A stretch of 64,000 nucleotides of DNA from an uncultured Candidatus Pelagibacter sp. (GCA_905618905.1 CAJQTH010000008.1:21051-85050), one strand, 5' to 3'; shown: positions 35,301 through 43,031, counted from the stretch's first letter. Program-made: numbers and translations. Notes: generated by a model from the sequence alone, not told the origin.

Positions 35301-35702
35301 ATGCTTTATTTCGCTTATGGAAGCAATTTAAATCATTATCAAATGAAAAGAAGATGCAAAGACAGTGTCTTTTTAAAGAAAATTAATTTAACTAATTTTA
35401 AATTAACCTTTAGAAGCAAATATCGAGCTGCAGATATAGAGCCTAAAAAAAGCTCAATTGTTCCAGGAGCTTTATTTGAAATATCTAAAAGTGATGAAAA
35501 AAAATTAGATGTTTATGAAGATTATCCAGCTCTATATAAAAAATATTATTTTACTTATTATGGTAAGAAAGTAATGACCTATACAATGACTAAAAAAACT
35601 TTTTTTGCATACCCAACAGAACGATATTTAAATGTTGTAAAGAGAGGTTATAAAGATTGTAATTTAGATAATCATATTCTTAAAAAAGCATTAAAAGCTT
35701 AA
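35301..35702 (+). CDS. gamma-glutamylcyclotransferase-like (AIG2 family)
   Basis: YFAYGSNLNHYQMKRRC, VPGALFEIS. Confidence 0.85.
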   Translation: MLYFAYGSNLNHYQMKRRCKDSVFLKKINLTNFKLTFRSKYRAADIEPKKSSIVPGALFEISKSDEKKLDVYEDYPALYKKYYFTYYGKKVMTYTMTKKTFFAYPTERYLNVVKRGYKDCNLDNHILKKALKA

Positions 35703-35781
35703 TTAAGATATTGATATAATTTGTTAACAAAAAGAAGTTGAGTTATAAATAAAAACGGTTAAACAAATGAAAATAGTACAT

Positions 35782-35866
35782 GCCCTCGTGGTGAAATTGG
35801 TAGACACAACGGACTTAAAATCCGTGCCTTTTTGGAGTGCCAGTTCGAGTCTGGCCGAGGGCACCA
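35782..35866 (+). tRNA. tRNA-Leu (anticodon TAA)
   Basis: gccctcg...cgagggcacca; loop CTTAAAA; long variable arm; CCA encoded. Confidence 0.95.
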
Positions 35867-35870
35867 CTAA

Positions 35871-36650
35871 ATGAGAGATAAAGTATATTTAGTATTTGAT
35901 AAAACCAAGGCTTCCCTAAAGATTAAATCAATTCTAATTAAAAAAGTTAACGTTACATCTTTAAGAAAATCCAACATAATAATTGTTCTAGGTGGGGATG
36001 GTTTTATGCTTCAAACTTTAAAAAAATTACACAAATATAAAAAACCTTTTTATGGAATTAATTCTGGAAACTATGGTTTTTTGATGAATAAGTTTTCTAA
36101 TGAAAACATCATTAAAAATTTAAATATCTCCAACAGTATAAAAATTTATCCTCTACAAATGACTGTTACTAATAAAAATAACCAAACAAAAAAATCAATA
36201 GCTATTAATGAGGTGTCAATATTAAGACAAAGCAAGCAGGCATCATCAATTTCTATTACAGCTAATAAGAAAAATATTATTAAAAATCTAATCTCTGATG
36301 GCGTACTAGTTTCAACACCTGCGGGTAGTACGGCGTACAATTTATCAGCACATGGGCCAATTCTAAATTTAGATTCAAGAAAATTAGCAGTTACTCCTAT
36401 TAGCCCCTTTAGACCTAGAAGATGGAAGGGATCAGTAGTTAGTGATAAATCTAAAATTTTAATAAAAAATTTAGATGTAAATAAAAGACCTATTAGTGCT
36501 GTAGCAGATAATTTTGAAGTTAGAAATGCAAAGATAATTAAAATTCAAGCAAATAAGAAAATTAGCTTTGAACTATTGTATGATAAAAAAAACAGTCTTT
36601 ATAAAAAGATTAAGATCGAACAAGTTAGAGAAGAGACCTCAAATAATTAA
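35871..36650 (+). CDS. nadK: NAD kinase
   Basis: VLGGDGFMLQTL, NSGNYGFLM, TPAGSTAYNLSAHGPI. Confidence 0.93.
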   Translation: MRDKVYLVFDKTKASLKIKSILIKKVNVTSLRKSNIIIVLGGDGFMLQTLKKLHKYKKPFYGINSGNYGFLMNKFSNENIIKNLNISNSIKIYPLQMTVTNKNNQTKKSIAINEVSILRQSKQASSISITANKKNIIKNLISDGVLVSTPAGSTAYNLSAHGPILNLDSRKLAVTPISPFRPRRWKGSVVSDKSKILIKNLDVNKRPISAVADNFEVRNAKIIKIQANKKISFELLYDKKNSLYKKIKIEQVREETSNN

Positions 36651-36707
36651 AAAAAATAATTAAAGAATTTTTTTTTACCCATCATTGTTCTTATTTTTTT
36701 TGAGCGA

Positions 36708-36753
36708 TGGTGCCCGAACGGATTTGAATCGTGGACCTATTGATTACAAATCA
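36708..36753 (-). pseudogene. tRNA-Thr relic: 3' half plus anticodon arm
   Basis: Reverse complement TGATTTGTAATCAATAGGTCCACGATTCAAATCCGTTCGGGCACCA closely matches the 3' half of the intact tRNA-Thr; similarity stops after the anticodon arm. Confidence 0.85.
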
Positions 36754-36829
36754 GTAAGCTAACAAATTATCCCTTCATTAACTATTGATACTACTTACTT
36801 CTAGACTCCCGTCAAGTTGGTTAAAGATA

Positions 36830-36850
36830 TTTCACTTCAATTTCACTTCA
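36830..36850. repeat. 21-bp direct repeat, copy upstream of lectin gene
   Basis: tttcacttcaatttcacttca; 20/21 match to 39084-39104; itself two TTTCACTTCA units 11 bp apart. Confidence 0.8.
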
Positions 36851-36884
36851 CTTGATTATTTATTATGCTAGATATTGACTAATT

Positions 36885-39071
36885 ATGAAAAGATTAATAT
36901 TTGCGTTAGTTCTTAATATCTTTACAAATTTTAATTACGTTACAGCCGAAACTATAACGATGCCGTCAAGTTTGACAGCTGATACCACTGCTTTTGTTTT
37001 ATTATCTTCTTCAGGAACAACACCAAGTATCAGTGGATATACGGCAACAGATTTATTAGCAACTATTGTTGCATCAGCTGGAACTTTAATTGTTACAACT
37101 ACCACAGGTTTGGAACAAGCTTCTGGGTATTGTGATTATACTGCAGATAATTCCGGTGAACCTACTAATTGCAAATTAGAAGCTAGTGATCATCCTGAAA
37201 TAGGATTTATAGGAACTCAGGCTGAAATAAATGCTGCTCTAGCTACTTTATCTTTTAAAGGTGATGGATCTACTGGATCACCAACCGTTACACTTTCGAT
37301 AACACCTGCTGGTAATAATTATAATTCAGCAAATGGTCATTATTATAAAATAGTTAACGATGATGAGATTTCTTTTACAGATTCAATAGCAGCAGCTGAA
37401 GGATCTACATATAATGGATTATCTGGTTATCTTGTTAGTATAACTTCAGAAGCAGAAAATGATTTTTTAAATGCAAAAGTGAATCAAAATGCTTGGATTG
37501 GAGGTTCTGACAAAGCCTCATTAACTTCAAACTCTCATTCAGTAACTGAAGGAACTTGGGAATGGATATCAGGTCCTGACAACGGAAAAACTTTTTTTTG
37601 TCAAGTAGCAATTAGCGGTAAAGCTAATGCTGCAGATAGTGATTGTACAGTAGCTACTGGTTACTCTTATAATAATTGGAGAAATGCCGAACCCAACGAT
37701 CACAGCAGCAATACAACTGGAGAAGAAGATTGTGCGCACATGAGAAGTGATGGAGAGTGGAATGATTTTCCATGTAATTCAACAAGTGTAGATTATTACA
37801 TTATTGAATATGGAGGAACTGCAGGTGAAACAGCAACAACTTTTGGATTAACAATATTAACAATAGAATCTTTAGAAGCAAGCGGAAGTACGCACCAAGC
37901 ATTTAATGACAAACAATTATCTGGAATAGTGGAAGCTCAAACTGAGAGCATGAAAAGACATATGTTTAATTCGACTAATTCTATTATGGATCGAATGGAA
38001 CAGTTCAGAAGAACCGGAGATAACAAAGGTTTACAGTTAAATGATTTTAGATTGTCACTCATTGATCAAGGAGTAGATAATCATACTCATGCCAAACTAG
38101 CAAAACATTATCTACAAAAATACTCTAAAGAAGTTTCTAATAAAAAAGGATTTAATCTTACAGAGAAAAATATAGAAAAATTTATTACTGAACTACCACT
38201 TTCAAAATATATGAAACAAGAATTTGGTTTAAAGCCTAAAAAATGGGTTATGTGGAGTGCAGGCTCAATATCTCAAGGAGGTCTTAACTTTAGTGTTGGT
38301 CAATTAGGTAGAAAAAATAAATCTAATGGATTTACAGTTGGCGCAGATTTAGACTTGAGTGATAATTCCTTATTAGGGTTTGCTTTAAGGGATGAAACTG
38401 AAGATGTAGAGGTTAGTACAAATGGAACTAAGTATAAATCTGATAATTCAACATTATCATTTTATAACACTTGGAGAGCTAATGATGAAAACTATGTAGA
38501 TACTTTCATAGGATTTGGGAAAACAAAACAAGCAACTACAAGAATTGTTGATGTTACAAATAAGACTAAAGTTACGGGTGAATTGAAAAGTAAACAAGCT
38601 TTTGGTGCAATTAAGTATAATTTCAAAAAAAATTATAAATTAGTTAATCTTAACAATTATTCCATAGTAAATTTTGGTTATAGCATGTTTGACTCTTATT
38701 CAGAAAAAGGTGACAGTAATTTAAAATTAAAATTTGATGATCGTGATCTAAAATCTTATTCTCTTTCTATAGGATCTTTAATAGAGTCTAAAATAGATTT
38801 GAAAAATTCAAAATTAATTCCATATTTAAGAATTGATATAACAGAAGATCTGACTGAAGATTCTAATTTAAAAGCAAATTATATCTCAAGCCCCTCTAAT
38901 CAATATAGCAAAAGTATTAGTAAACATTTCTCAACTATTATTCGGGCAGAGACTGGATTTGATTGGAATTTTAGAAATGATTGGAATATATCATCCACTT
39001 TAGAAAGAATTGATAAAAATGGTTTAGGACATCAAAATAGTTTAAAATTTAATGCAAATAAATCTTTTTAG
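36885..39071 (+). CDS. secreted C-type lectin-like domain / autotransporter beta-barrel protein
   Basis: 728 aa; signal peptide; GYLVSITSEAENDFLN...WIGGSD...GTWEWISG...NNWRNAEPNDHSS...EEDCAHMRSDGEWNDFPC...YYIIEYGG (EPN and WND motifs); amphipathic strands to C-terminal NKSF. Confidence 0.85.
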   Translation: MKRLIFALVLNIFTNFNYVTAETITMPSSLTADTTAFVLLSSSGTTPSISGYTATDLLATIVASAGTLIVTTTTGLEQASGYCDYTADNSGEPTNCKLEASDHPEIGFIGTQAEINAALATLSFKGDGSTGSPTVTLSITPAGNNYNSANGHYYKIVNDDEISFTDSIAAAEGSTYNGLSGYLVSITSEAENDFLNAKVNQNAWIGGSDKASLTSNSHSVTEGTWEWISGPDNGKTFFCQVAISGKANAADSDCTVATGYSYNNWRNAEPNDHSSNTTGEEDCAHMRSDGEWNDFPCNSTSVDYYIIEYGGTAGETATTFGLTILTIESLEASGSTHQAFNDKQLSGIVEAQTESMKRHMFNSTNSIMDRMEQFRRTGDNKGLQLNDFRLSLIDQGVDNHTHAKLAKHYLQKYSKEVSNKKGFNLTEKNIEKFITELPLSKYMKQEFGLKPKKWVMWSAGSISQGGLNFSVGQLGRKNKSNGFTVGADLDLSDNSLLGFALRDETEDVEVSTNGTKYKSDNSTLSFYNTWRANDENYVDTFIGFGKTKQATTRIVDVTNKTKVTGELKSKQAFGAIKYNFKKNYKLVNLNNYSIVNFGYSMFDSYSEKGDSNLKLKFDDRDLKSYSLSIGSLIESKIDLKNSKLIPYLRIDITEDLTEDSNLKANYISSPSNQYSKSISKHFSTIIRAETGFDWNFRNDWNISSTLERIDKNGLGHQNSLKFNANKSF

Positions 39072-39083
39072 ATAAAAAAAAAT

Positions 39084-39104
39084 TTTCACTTCAATATCAC
39101 TTCA
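39084..39104. repeat. 21-bp direct repeat, copy downstream of lectin gene
   Basis: tttcacttcaatatcacttca, 12 nt after the lectin stop codon. Confidence 0.8.
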
Positions 39105-39204
39105 ATGAGTTCTACTTTCTTCCTTTTTATAGTCTTTGTTCTGGTATTTTTTCCTACAGTTTTTTTTCCAAAGATTCAAAAAGTGAAATAAGTAAAGGAT
39201 TGTG

Positions 39205-39280
39205 TGGTGCCCCCGCACGGAGTCGAACCGCGGACCTATTGATTACAAATCAATTGCTCTACCAGCTGAGCTACAAGGGC
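39205..39280 (-). tRNA. tRNA-Thr (anticodon TGT)
   Basis: GCCCTTGTAGCTCAGCTGGTAGAGCAATTGATTTGTAATCAATAGGTCCGCGGTTCGACTCCGTGCGGGGGCACCA. Confidence 0.95.
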
Positions 39281-39413
39281 ATAACATTTATCAACAATTA
39301 GTGGGTTATATATTAATTATAATTTCTAGCACTCTTTTTTTTATTAAAAAACCTAAGTAAAAACAATAAATTATAGAATATTGCATAGTATTTGTTATAA
39401 GAAAAAATTTTAT

Positions 39414-40142
39414 ATGAAAAACAAAATTAAAAAATTTTTAAATATTTTAAAAGTAGCCTTGATCGGTGTTAGGCATAACCTGATACCGGTACCAAGAAAG
39501 CCTGAGAAGAAAATTACACCCTACACAATGTTTCGAGATGAACAGCTATCTAATTGTTATGAACACTTTAAGAAATATTTCAAATCTTCAATATTCATAA
39601 GCACAACTAGACTATTAAGAGAATACGCTATTAAAGAATCATTAGTAAATGATAAAAATTGTGAAAAATTTTCCCTTGAATTTGGAGTTCATAAAGGTGA
39701 GTCAGTTAATTTTTTTTCAAAACATGTCCAGCACATTTACGGTTTTGATTCTTTTGAAGGCTTGAAAGAAGATTGGCATGGGACATTAGATTTACAAAAA
39801 GGAAGTTTTGACACGGGCAGCATGATGCCCAAAACAAATTCGAATGTAACTCTTATAAAAGGATGGGTTCAGGATACAGTTGAAAAATTCCTAGATGAGA
39901 AGAAACCGAAAATTAACTTTGTACATATGGACCTAGACACATACGATTCATCTAAATATGTGCTTGAAAGAATAAAGCCATATTTAGTAAAAGATTCTAT
40001 TATAGTTTTTGATGAACTTTATAATTATCCAGGGTGGGATGTTGGTGAATATAAAGCGCTAACAGAGGTATTTAATGAAAATGAGTATAAATATTTAGCA
40101 TTTGCGGATGAAGGAACAGCATGTGCAATAAAAATAGTTTAG
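39414..40142 (+). CDS. TylF/macrocin O-methyltransferase-like protein
   Basis: SLEFGVHKGESVNFFSKHVQHIYGFDSFEGLKEDW, VHMDLDTYDSSKYVLE; ATG at 39414 preferred. Confidence 0.8.
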   Translation: MKNKIKKFLNILKVALIGVRHNLIPVPRKPEKKITPYTMFRDEQLSNCYEHFKKYFKSSIFISTTRLLREYAIKESLVNDKNCEKFSLEFGVHKGESVNFFSKHVQHIYGFDSFEGLKEDWHGTLDLQKGSFDTGSMMPKTNSNVTLIKGWVQDTVEKFLDEKKPKINFVHMDLDTYDSSKYVLERIKPYLVKDSIIVFDELYNYPGWDVGEYKALTEVFNENEYKYLAFADEGTACAIKIV

Positions 40143-40259
40143 TTTTTTAAAACACCAATTGGTAACATTAAGTACAAATATCTTAACTAAAATTAAGCTT
40201 CATTACTAGGGTTCACCAAACACAGAGTTAATGCAGTTAGAATATTTTTATATATTAAA

Positions 40260-40475
40260 ATGCAAGAGGGGAAGTTTGTTTCAAGTGGAGAATTAAAACC
40301 AAAAACTCACACTTGGATTGCACTTGATAATAAGAATACAGAAGCAATGGTAGGGCTTCACAAATCTCATAAGTGGGACAAGTTAAGAACCTTGCAGCAG
40401 CAAGGATTAATAGAATTAAAAACTTGTAAAGGTAAGGCTCCCAGATCCAAGATTATTGTGCAAAGTTCGCACTAA
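40260..40475 (+). CDS. hypothetical 71-aa protein
   Basis: ORF track, ATG start, no family recognised. Confidence 0.35.
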   Translation: MQEGKFVSSGELKPKTHTWIALDNKNTEAMVGLHKSHKWDKLRTLQQQGLIELKTCKGKAPRSKIIVQSSH

Positions 40476-40633
40476 ATTTTAGGATTACACTACCTAAACA
40501 AATTGTTAAGAATTCACCGTAACATTTGTTTTAGCAGCAGCTGGAATACAAGGTAACTGCGACATGCAGATTGTTAGCAGATGTTAGCAACTAAATTAAT
40601 AAAAACGTAATTGTTTAGTGATGTTTAGGTCGT

Positions 40634-40675
40634 TTGATTACAAATCAATTGCTCTACCAGCTGAGCTATAAGGGC
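40634..40675 (-). pseudogene. tRNA-Thr relic: 5' half plus anticodon arm
   Basis: ttgattacaaatcaattgctctaccagctgagctataagggc; one mismatch to the 5' half of the intact tRNA-Thr; the 3' half is absent. Confidence 0.9.
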
Positions 40676-40708
40676 ATAACTAATTTCTATTCAGAAATCT
40701 TATACTAA

Positions 40709-41452
40709 TCAAGAATTTTTTTTCAAATAACTTAAATGATGAAACACAATCGCTGCACTATTTGAGATATTTAAGCTTTCTACATCTTTATTTATATCAA
40801 TCTTAACAAAAAAATCGGTGTACTTTCCAGTGTGTTCTCTCATACCAAAACCTTCAGATCCAAATAAAAGGACATTTTTTCCTTCCCATTTAATATCTGT
40901 AAAGTCTTTTTCTCCTCTTGCATCAAACCCATAAACCCAAAAATTCTTTTCTCTTAAATTTTTAAGTGTAGAATTTATATTTGATACCTCAAAAATGTTG
41001 ATATGTTCCATGCAACCACTTGCGGCTTTATACATAAGTTTACTATCAGATGGGAATTGTCTTTCTTTAACTATTAATCCATCTATATGAAATGAAGAAG
41101 CACTCCTAATTAATGATCCAATATTTCTTGGGTCGGTCACTTCATCAATGCAAACAAATGTTAATTTATTTTTACCTTTTATAAATTCTTTTAAGTCGGG
41201 TTGATCAATATTTTCCACTTCCGCAATGTAACCGCCGTGCATAATTTGATCTTTAGAAGTGTACTTATCTAATTCTTTTTTTGATTTAAAATAAACCTTA
41301 ACGTCCTCAAGAACATTTTTCTTTGGGTTTTTTCTATGAATATTTTTTTTACTTTCCTCTGTTAAAAAAACTTTTAAAACTTTTCTTTTTGGGTTTCTTA
41401 AAGCCTCAATAACAGCATGTTGACCAACGATTAAAAAAGATGATTTATTCAT
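40709..41452 (-). CDS. rlmB: RlmB/TrmH-family 23S rRNA/tRNA 2'-O-methyltransferase
   Basis: DEVTDPRNIGSLIRSA, LLFGSEGFGM, SLNISNSAAI. Confidence 0.9.
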   Translation of the reverse strand: MNKSSFLIVGQHAVIEALRNPKRKVLKVFLTEESKKNIHRKNPKKNVLEDVKVYFKSKKELDKYTSKDQIMHGGYIAEVENIDQPDLKEFIKGKNKLTFVCIDEVTDPRNIGSLIRSASSFHIDGLIVKERQFPSDSKLMYKAASGCMEHINIFEVSNINSTLKNLREKNFWVYGFDARGEKDFTDIKWEGKNVLLFGSEGFGMREHTGKYTDFFVKIDINKDVESLNISNSAAIVFHHLSYLKKNS

Positions 41453-41582
41453 AAATTATCATTGTTTTATACGTATTTTTCCCCATTTTCACAGTAAATC
41501 TCGTGTTGCAATTGCATAATAAAAATATATAAAACGCATGTTGTTTGAAGCTTTATTAAACAAGGGGACACTTCCCCAAAAA

Positions 41583-41668
41583 GGAGGGGTTCCAGAGCGG
41601 TCAAATGGGGCGGGCTGTAAACCCGTTGACTTCGGTCTTCGAAAGTTCGAATCTTTCCCCCTCCACCA
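41583..41668 (+). tRNA. tRNA-Tyr (anticodon GTA)
   Basis: ggaggggttccagagcgg...gggctgtaaaccc...ccccctccacca; long variable arm. Confidence 0.95.
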
Positions 41669-41714
41669 CTCAATAAAATTTTTTATGACAATGGAGTGTT
41701 ATTCTTGATGTTGT

Positions 41715-41788
41715 GCGGGTGTAGTTCAATGGTAGAACGCTAGCCTTCCAAGCTGGATGTAAGAGTTCGATTCTCTTTACCCGCTCCA
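41715..41788 (+). tRNA. tRNA-Gly (anticodon TCC)
   Basis: gcgggtgtagttcaatggtagaacgctagccttccaagct...acccgctcca. Confidence 0.95.
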
Positions 41789-41834
41789 AGAAGAAAAGAA
41801 ATTATTAATAAAACTAAACTGAGGTAAAAAAGTA

Positions 41835-43031
41835 ATGTCAAAAGAAAAGTTCGTAAGAAATAAACCACACTGTAACATTGGTACAATTGGTCATGTCGAC
41901 CATGGTAAGACAACATTAACTGCAGCGATCACAAAAGTGTTATCTGAAACAGCTGGTTCAACTGCAACTTTTACAGCGTACGATCAAATTGATAAAGCCC
42001 CTGAAGAAAAAGAAAGAGGAATTACAATTTCGACTGCTCACGTTGAATATGAAACTGACAAGAGACATTATGCACACGTAGATTGCCCAGGTCACGCTGA
42101 CTATGTAAAAAATATGATTACAGGTGCAGCTCAAATGGATGGAGCAATTTTAGTAGTTAATGCTGCTGATGGCCCTATGCCTCAAACTAGAGAACACATT
42201 CTTTTAGGAAGACAAGTTGGAATTCCTTCAATTGTTGTTTACTTGAATAAAGTTGATCAAGTAGATGATAAAGATATGATTGAACTTGTAGAAGAAGAAA
42301 TTAGAGAACTTTTAACTTCTTATAAATATCCTGGTGAAACAACTCCAATTACTAAAGGTTCCGCTTTAGCAGCTGTTGAAGGTAGAGATGATGAAATTGG
42401 AAAGAATTCAATTATAGAATTAATGAAAACTGTTGATGAATTCATTCCTCAACCAACTAGAGATGTTGATAAACCTTTCCTAATGCCTGTTGAGGATGTT
42501 TTCTCAATTTCAGGTCGAGGAACTGTTGCAACTGGTAGAATTGAATCTGGTGTTATTAAAACTGGTGAAGAAGTTGAAATCGTTGGTGTTACTGAAACTA
42601 AAAAATCAGTTTGTACTGGTGTTGAAATGTTCAGAAAACTTTTAGATTCTGGTGAAGCAGGTGATAACGTTGGTATTCTATTAAGAGGTGTTGAGCGAGA
42701 TGATATTCAAAGAGGACAAGTTCTTTGTAAAACTGGTTCAATTACCCCACATACTAAATTTGAAGCTCAGGCTTATGTACTTAAAAAAGATGAGGGTGGA
42801 AGACACACTCCTTTCTTTACTAAATACAGGCCTCAGTTTTACTTTAGAACAACTGACGTAACTGGAGAAGTTACATTACCAGCTGGAACTGAAATGGTTA
42901 TGCCTGGTGATGATGCTAAATTCACTGTTACTTTAATTACTCCAATTGCGATGAGCGAAAAATTAAACTTTGCAATTCGTGAAGGTGGTAGAACAGTTGG
43001 AGCTGGAGTAGTAACTAAAATTATAGAGTAA
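41835..43031 (+). CDS. tuf: elongation factor Tu
   Basis: [17 protein letters not shown], full length. Confidence 0.98.

Follow-up and report, generated by a model that had tools for sequence, protein, structure and literature searches.

How does a streamlined SAR11 genome come to hold an intact tRNA-Thr gene between two complementary halves of the same gene? The question is raised by a 64,000-nt stretch of DNA from an uncultured Candidatus Pelagibacter sp. (GCA_905618905.1, CAJQTH010000008.1:21051-85050), called the window here in its full length, where three tRNA-Thr(TGT)-derived copies lie on the minus strand between nadK and an rlmB-type gene. The locus is, in all probability, an integration hot spot for small integrase-less cassettes that enter at tRNA-Thr and are moved by a tyrosine integrase. 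The three copies and the genes that frame them are as follows.

35871 to 36650, plus strand: nadK with NAD_kinase domains, the left chromosomal flank, syntenic in relatives
36708 to 36753, minus strand: left relic, the 3' half and anticodon arm of tRNA-Thr, at the outer end of the left cassette
39205 to 39280, minus strand: intact tRNA-Thr(TGT), called by ARAGORN, the integration site
40634 to 40675, minus strand: right relic, the host's original 5' half and anticodon arm of tRNA-Thr, in a flank collinear with locus L035 of a close relative
40709 to 41452, minus strand: rlmB-type SpoU methyltransferase (Pfam SpoU_methylase, 2.8e-36), the right chromosomal flank

The initial annotation had described an intact copy between a 3' half on the left and a 5' half on the right, and this observation is confirmed, coordinates included; ARAGORN calls the middle copy only, the sole intact one of the three. 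Compared with that copy and its flank, the left relic (36713-36753 vs 39212-39252) is 88% identical and the right one (40634-40680 vs 39239-39285) is 98% identical, forming a 47-nt repeat that extends 5 nt beyond the tRNA 5' end. Both relics break precisely at the anticodon stem, which they approach from opposite sides. The source genome queried with the tRNA region gave exactly three places (E = 6e-48, 2e-17 and 6e-9), values that exclude chance.

Relatives, by which we mean members of the same SAR11 genus (the loci from named records are mostly Pelagibacteraceae single-cell genomes), keep the order nadK, tRNA-Thr, rlmB, with the site between the flanks either empty or occupied. In L035, the nearest full comparison, which matches window positions 35301-36701 and 40634-42000 at 93-94% identity, the tRNA adjoins rlmB and only a 102-aa lipoprotein open reading frame (ORF) lies between the tRNA and nadK; L037 holds other cargo bounded by the same core. 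Among 47 sampled loci with both flanks, 13 were empty (<200 bp), 20 contained tRNA halves and 14 were filled without recognisable halves, and seven carried an insert of >300 bp on the rlmB side, proportions that are indicative only because the loci were chosen largely for long contigs. The synteny comparison proposed with the initial annotation therefore returned close relatives with a (nearly) empty site or with different cargo at the same core, and not one arrangement common to all. The interpretation given with that annotation, insertion by a tyrosine recombinase at an anticodon-arm core, is supported, also by a viral contig and by SAR11 integrase loci. The annotation had not recognised the locus as a widespread array of cassettes whose arms are conserved.

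The left insertion of the window has the following parts.

36754 to 36884, no strand: leader or P arm of the left cassette, class C type, an arm class common to seven loci
36830 to 36851, no strand: two 11-bp arm repeats, TTTCACTTCAA / TTTCACTTCAC, in the leader
36885 to 39071, plus strand: cargo gene for a 728-aa secreted autotransporter with a C-type lectin domain (Pfam Autotransporter 1.5e-26, Lectin_C 3.8e-8)
39072 to 39204, no strand: trailer or P' arm of the left cassette
39084 to 39105, no strand: two 11-bp arm repeats, TTTCACTTCAA / TATCACTTCAA, matching the repeats of the leader end

This cassette is a member of the 3'-side type. Its class C leader type occurs also in L034, L059, L081, L083, L087, L090 and L144, and the cassette itself (36713-39282) is found in L034 at 96% identity, as a normal unit with different neighbours. 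The window lacks some 300 bp of the spacer that ancestrally separated nadK from the tRNA, including the 102-aa lipoprotein ORF, which leaves the origin of the left relic ambiguous: it may represent the 3' half that the host began with or that of an earlier cassette, since lost.

The right insertion contains less.

39281 to 40633, no strand: right (5'-side) element, not in close relative L035
39414 to 40142, plus strand: cargo gene for a TylF/Methyltransf_24-type methyltransferase (Pfam 1.3e-10)
40260 to 40475, plus strand: 71-aa ORF with no Pfam match

In L035 the sequence of window positions 40634-42000 is joined straight to the tRNA, and by this collinearity the right element has been inserted, and the right relic represents the 5' half that the host had originally. 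The right insert is of a mirror-image 5'-side type, rarer than the 3'-side type and present at two other loci: 5'-half relics (about positions 1-42) occur in the window, in L083 (the same record as L318, AG-404-N13) and in L323 (AG-343-F19), the inserted DNA measuring 1.4-1.6 kb. Genes of the methyl- or glycosyltransferase type are present in several 5'-side inserts, and in L047 a TylF-type gene likewise lies on the 5' side. The 5' insertion stands alone, with no 3' half, in L323, and L087, L090 and L144 have 3'-side cassettes of the window's class only, with rlmB adjoining the tRNA. Since each kind of insertion occurs alone elsewhere, the window is best taken to combine two independent events.

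Cassettes of the 3'-side type form tandem arrays. In many genomes one to five tandem 3' halves lie between the intact tRNA and nadK, and each cassette ends in a tRNA 3'-half copy cut at the anticodon stem. We counted 98 units in 70 loci, named loci included, of which 90 were non-identical; their median length is 1.6 kb and most measure 0.7-7 kb (2.5 and 1.4 kb for the two elements of the window). The first start codon lies about 90 nt from the tRNA half in most units, the stretch between the last stop codon and the 3' end of the preceding tRNA is nearly constant at about 115 nt, and unrelated cassettes resemble each other across leaders and trailers. Some 90% of the 239 cassette ORFs (at least 60 aa) are co-oriented, 217 running as nadK does and 22 opposite to it.

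Type IV prepilin-like proteins account for 45 of these 239 ORFs. Families among 92 cassette proteins include type III restriction helicase, Mrr and McrB-like domains, DUF4268, MORN repeats, polysaccharide lyase, trypsin-like proteases, T5orf172 and autotransporters; a DpnI-like protein is also part of the cargo, and the proteins matched by anti-phage models include restriction enzymes of type IIG along with several candidate systems. From such protein families a role of the cargo in phage defence and surface variation may reasonably be inferred. Four loci (L053, L058, L063 and L162) contain units within the array with a dozen or so tandem type IV prepilin genes, conserved at the N-terminus and highly variable at the C-terminus. 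Otherwise different secreted cassette proteins of L036, L053, L059, L079 and L090 begin with a near-identical signal peptide, MKKLLGIVVLGLLL, as if the start region had been shuffled apart from the gene body. Between the tRNA and nadK of L074 (4080-5228) and of most of L271-L350 a 382-aa GcvT-fold protein is encoded, nearest to dimethylsulfoniopropionate demethylase models and under their cut-off, and in those lineages its gene may be an original occupant of the site.

The ends of the cassettes carry the organisation of a phage attachment site. The core is identical to the tRNA anticodon arm and 3' half, and direct 11-bp repeats stand on both sides of it, paired within the cassette. The exact 11-bp period was observed 78 times in P arms against 1.0 expected and 284 times in P' arms against 1.2, and the trailers show a second peak of periodicity at 22 bp. 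Leader and trailer classes pair up (0/10000 permutations); the repeat sequence varies among cassettes yet is common to both ends of any one, and this end-to-end sharing survives shuffling within classes (0/20000 permutations). Lambda-like tyrosine integrases have arm-type binding sites flanking the attP core, and the 11-bp repeats match the pattern expected of such sites, so that we regard them as putative arm-type sites. P-arm motifs of two classes were found at the tRNA-Thr locus or on short contigs carrying its pieces, with the exception of one match beside a tRNA half on a 2.2-kb contig, the place of which is uncertain; IMG/VR searched with the cassette arm sequences gave no matches. In a test for attC-like folding, three trailers folded no better than their shuffled versions (z-scores from -0.79 to 0.83), and one P arm with its core reached -2.2.

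Horizontal spread of the cassettes is evident in their identities. One 750-bp cassette is 98.3% identical between L151 and L159, the rlmB genes of which are 80.5% identical, and in other pairs cassette stretches reach 94-95% against 73-82% for core genes. When halves were compared for preservation, the one adjoining the tRNA was better preserved in 12 cases and the one adjoining nadK in 2, with 8 ties (p = 0.013), which is what the entry of new cassettes at the tRNA would produce.

The initial annotation saw no integrase gene, and a search of the source genome, 58% complete, for PF00589 tyrosine recombinases found none; among the 90 non-identical units only that of L089 encodes an integrase. 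The unit in question (L089:6300-14000) is a 7.7-kb satellite-like element between nadK and tRNA-Thr with a 451-aa integrase and a DUF5906 protein. Autonomous, integrase-bearing relatives do occur at the same site. A scan for the short core, which mostly met real phage tRNA-Thr genes, also yielded the attP-bearing viral contig L125, whose 328-aa tyrosine integrase has its start codon about 98 nt away from the 3' half of a tRNA-Thr, and which has TGCGGA-containing repeats in both arms and a P' arm resembling cassette trailers; BLAST of the tRNA half against named phages hit chiefly tRNA genes already annotated in phages, and none of the matches listed came from a SAR11 phage. The L125 integrase family is present also in SAR11 genomes: a 73%-identical integrase lies at a tRNA-Thr half abutting nadK in L365, a 76%-identical one belongs, together with a DUF5906 protein, to a satellite-like element at tRNA-Asn(GTT) that measures about 6.4 kb and has its arms laid out like those of the tRNA-Thr cassettes (L363:9277-15800), and L366 is a tRNA-Thr cassette in which a 78-aa N-terminal integrase remnant is followed by peroxiredoxin, methyltransferase and MORN-like genes. 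In this family the position and orientation of the integrase are those of cargo in the cassettes, and because the integrase sits where cargo sits, the cassettes appear to be attP-bearing derivatives mobilised in trans, with the integrase presumably supplied from elsewhere. In L126 (5374-12000), genes for a 349-aa integrase and small phage-like genes lie directly upstream of nadK, in the position of tRNA-Leu(TAA) in the window; ARAGORN finds no tRNA-Leu there, and the genes possibly belong to an element inserted in that tRNA.

We propose that a circular cassette would carry an attP in which the anticodon stem and 3' half lie between P and P' arms bearing the 11-bp direct repeats, and that a tyrosine integrase encoded by a phage or satellite would act in trans to recombine it with the anticodon stem of the intact tRNA. 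The incoming cassette would renew the 3' half of the tRNA and displace the old one toward nadK, so that successive insertions would build a tandem array with the newest cassette beside the tRNA. In the window, one lectin-autotransporter cassette would have been inserted on the 3' side, and a mirror-image element would have brought its own 5' half on the other, leaving the host 5' half beside rlmB. Several points weigh against this proposal. No excised circle was seen, and no search was aimed at one; the circle, and which helper serves cassettes of the window's class, are things that we infer; no full-length integrase with the window-type TTGAAGTGA arm repeats was found among the loci examined, and integrase-bearing examples are few (L125, L365, L363 and the remnant in L366). 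Paired arm repeats sought in the 5'-side elements gave none that were convincing, which makes the mechanism on that side less certain, and formed cassettes could also be spread by natural transformation and homologous recombination. A broader proposition, that SAR11 bacteria possess an integron-like exchange system made of phage attachment sites, with leaders and trailers of fixed form, element-specific 11-bp arms matched to co-diversifying integrases of phages or satellites, mobilisation in trans into a single tRNA array of genes for defence and the cell surface, and a mirror set of 5' halves, is put forward tentatively, as a real possibility of slightly less than even weight.

The last of the points above leads to the strongest alternative, which we consider rather unlikely: the cassettes would be decayed integrase-bearing satellites, each integrated once and later spread only by transformation and homologous recombination. 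The integrase fragment kept in L366 agrees with it, and homologous flanks would permit the exchange, but the conserved and paired arms and the near-fixed distance to the gene start suggest selection for continued mobility, and the differing neighbours of tandem units speak for site-specific insertion having happened repeatedly.

It is improbable that the mover is instead encoded by the host. A 317-318-aa tyrosine recombinase (L094-L123, e.g. L098, L116 and L122), probably SAR11_0551-like and of the O-chain region, is the sole PF00589 protein found in the majority of the genus's genomes (of the 22 that are nearly complete, 21 have a PF00589 match), and glycosyltransferase-like genes adjoin it in several loci. 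A conserved promoter-like stretch and then a palindrome, ACTAACGATAATTAATGGTTATCAATAGT, accompany its gene; in L116 both palindrome arms are changed together (TTTCCGATAA...TTATCGGAAA), and the palindrome may be the recombinase's own recombination or operator site. However, this covarying upstream palindrome is unlike the tRNA-Thr core, on which ground the O-chain-region type was judged an unlikely mover, and arm repeats that vary by cassette fit many cognate integrases rather than one. Least probable of all is a single phage that split the host tRNA-Thr at the anticodon core, supplied the middle tRNA and then decayed, which would account in one event for the complementary halves that flank the intact copy and recalls the CRP-810-type prophage reported in a SAR11 genome (PMC11288001), but which is opposed by the 5'-only and 3'-only loci described above, by the left cassette standing as a normal unit in L034 and by the lack of phage structural genes among the ORFs.

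Repeated insertion of cassettes mobilised in trans, the reading we prefer, is of consequence because SAR11 are the most abundant ocean bacteria and combine large gene-content diversity with few visible mobile elements. An att-bounded array with conserved arms and identifiable integrases offers a concrete and testable way in which pilins, adhesins and anti-phage genes could be exchanged, and the two insertions in the window suggest how gene swapping can proceed in streamlined cells that show no mobile DNA. We found no description of the SAR11 tRNA-Thr array in the literature, covered mostly through open-access sources, and a prior description is possible. Hypervariable region 4 of HTCC1062, whose genome is outside our set of loci, is flanked by tRNA and holds pilins (PMC2217521), and it is a candidate for the same locus.

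Among known systems, phage satellites of the phage-inducible chromosomal island (PICI) or P4-like kind are set apart by their integrase, replication genes and regulators, all absent from the window elements; an integrase together with a DUF5906 protein was seen only in L089 and L363. Some tycheposons also lack a recombinase of their own. As a group, the tycheposons of Prochlorococcus are cargo elements at tRNA genes with tyrosine recombinases, as described in PMC10872708, and are reported as 4-200 kb; the SAR11 cassettes are smaller, mostly 0.7-2.5 kb, hold one to few genes and make up a single tandem array, and the window elements are neither large nor provided with a recombinase. Roseophage CRP-810 integrates at a 13-bp core midway along tRNA-Thr and brings a tRNA-Thr of its own (PMC11288001). 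Phages and satellites of this anticodon-arm kind share with the present locus the tRNA-Thr anticodon-stem core and a site-specific integrase (here L125 and L365), and differ in that cargo replaces the integrase and all phage genes in the SAR11 cassettes. Closely comparable are the additive flexible islands of streamlined aquatic bacteria, since the SAR11 locus likewise has variable cassettes adjoining a tRNA, tRNA-fragment direct repeats and empty sites in relatives. Small tRNA-targeted cassettes with partial-tRNA direct repeats are described in Ca. Actinomarinales (PMC7771536) and at tRNA-Lys of Ca. Methylopumilus (PMC10872708), which differ in tRNA and taxa; as far as the available portions of these two accounts extend, they make no mention of arm-type sites, of leaders and trailers that are fixed, of linked integrases or of mirror-image insertions on the 5' side.

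The likeness reaches further, to integrons. Integron cassettes are tandem, co-oriented, integrase-less units of one to few genes, rich in defence-type and unknown genes, and the SAR11 cassettes are likewise tandem, co-oriented, of one to few genes and without an integrase, with a cargo in which defence-type and unknown genes also abound. They differ in that the SAR11 units lack IntI, the tRNA takes the place of attI and the arms resemble those of a phage attP; no IntI-type integrase was found in the cargo cassettes, and no tested protein reached the NCBIfam cut-off for integron integrases. No attC sites were detected at the SAR11 hypervariable regions (PMC2217521). The array is an attP-based counterpart of integron cassettes, and L366 shows one cassette caught with a truncated integrase.

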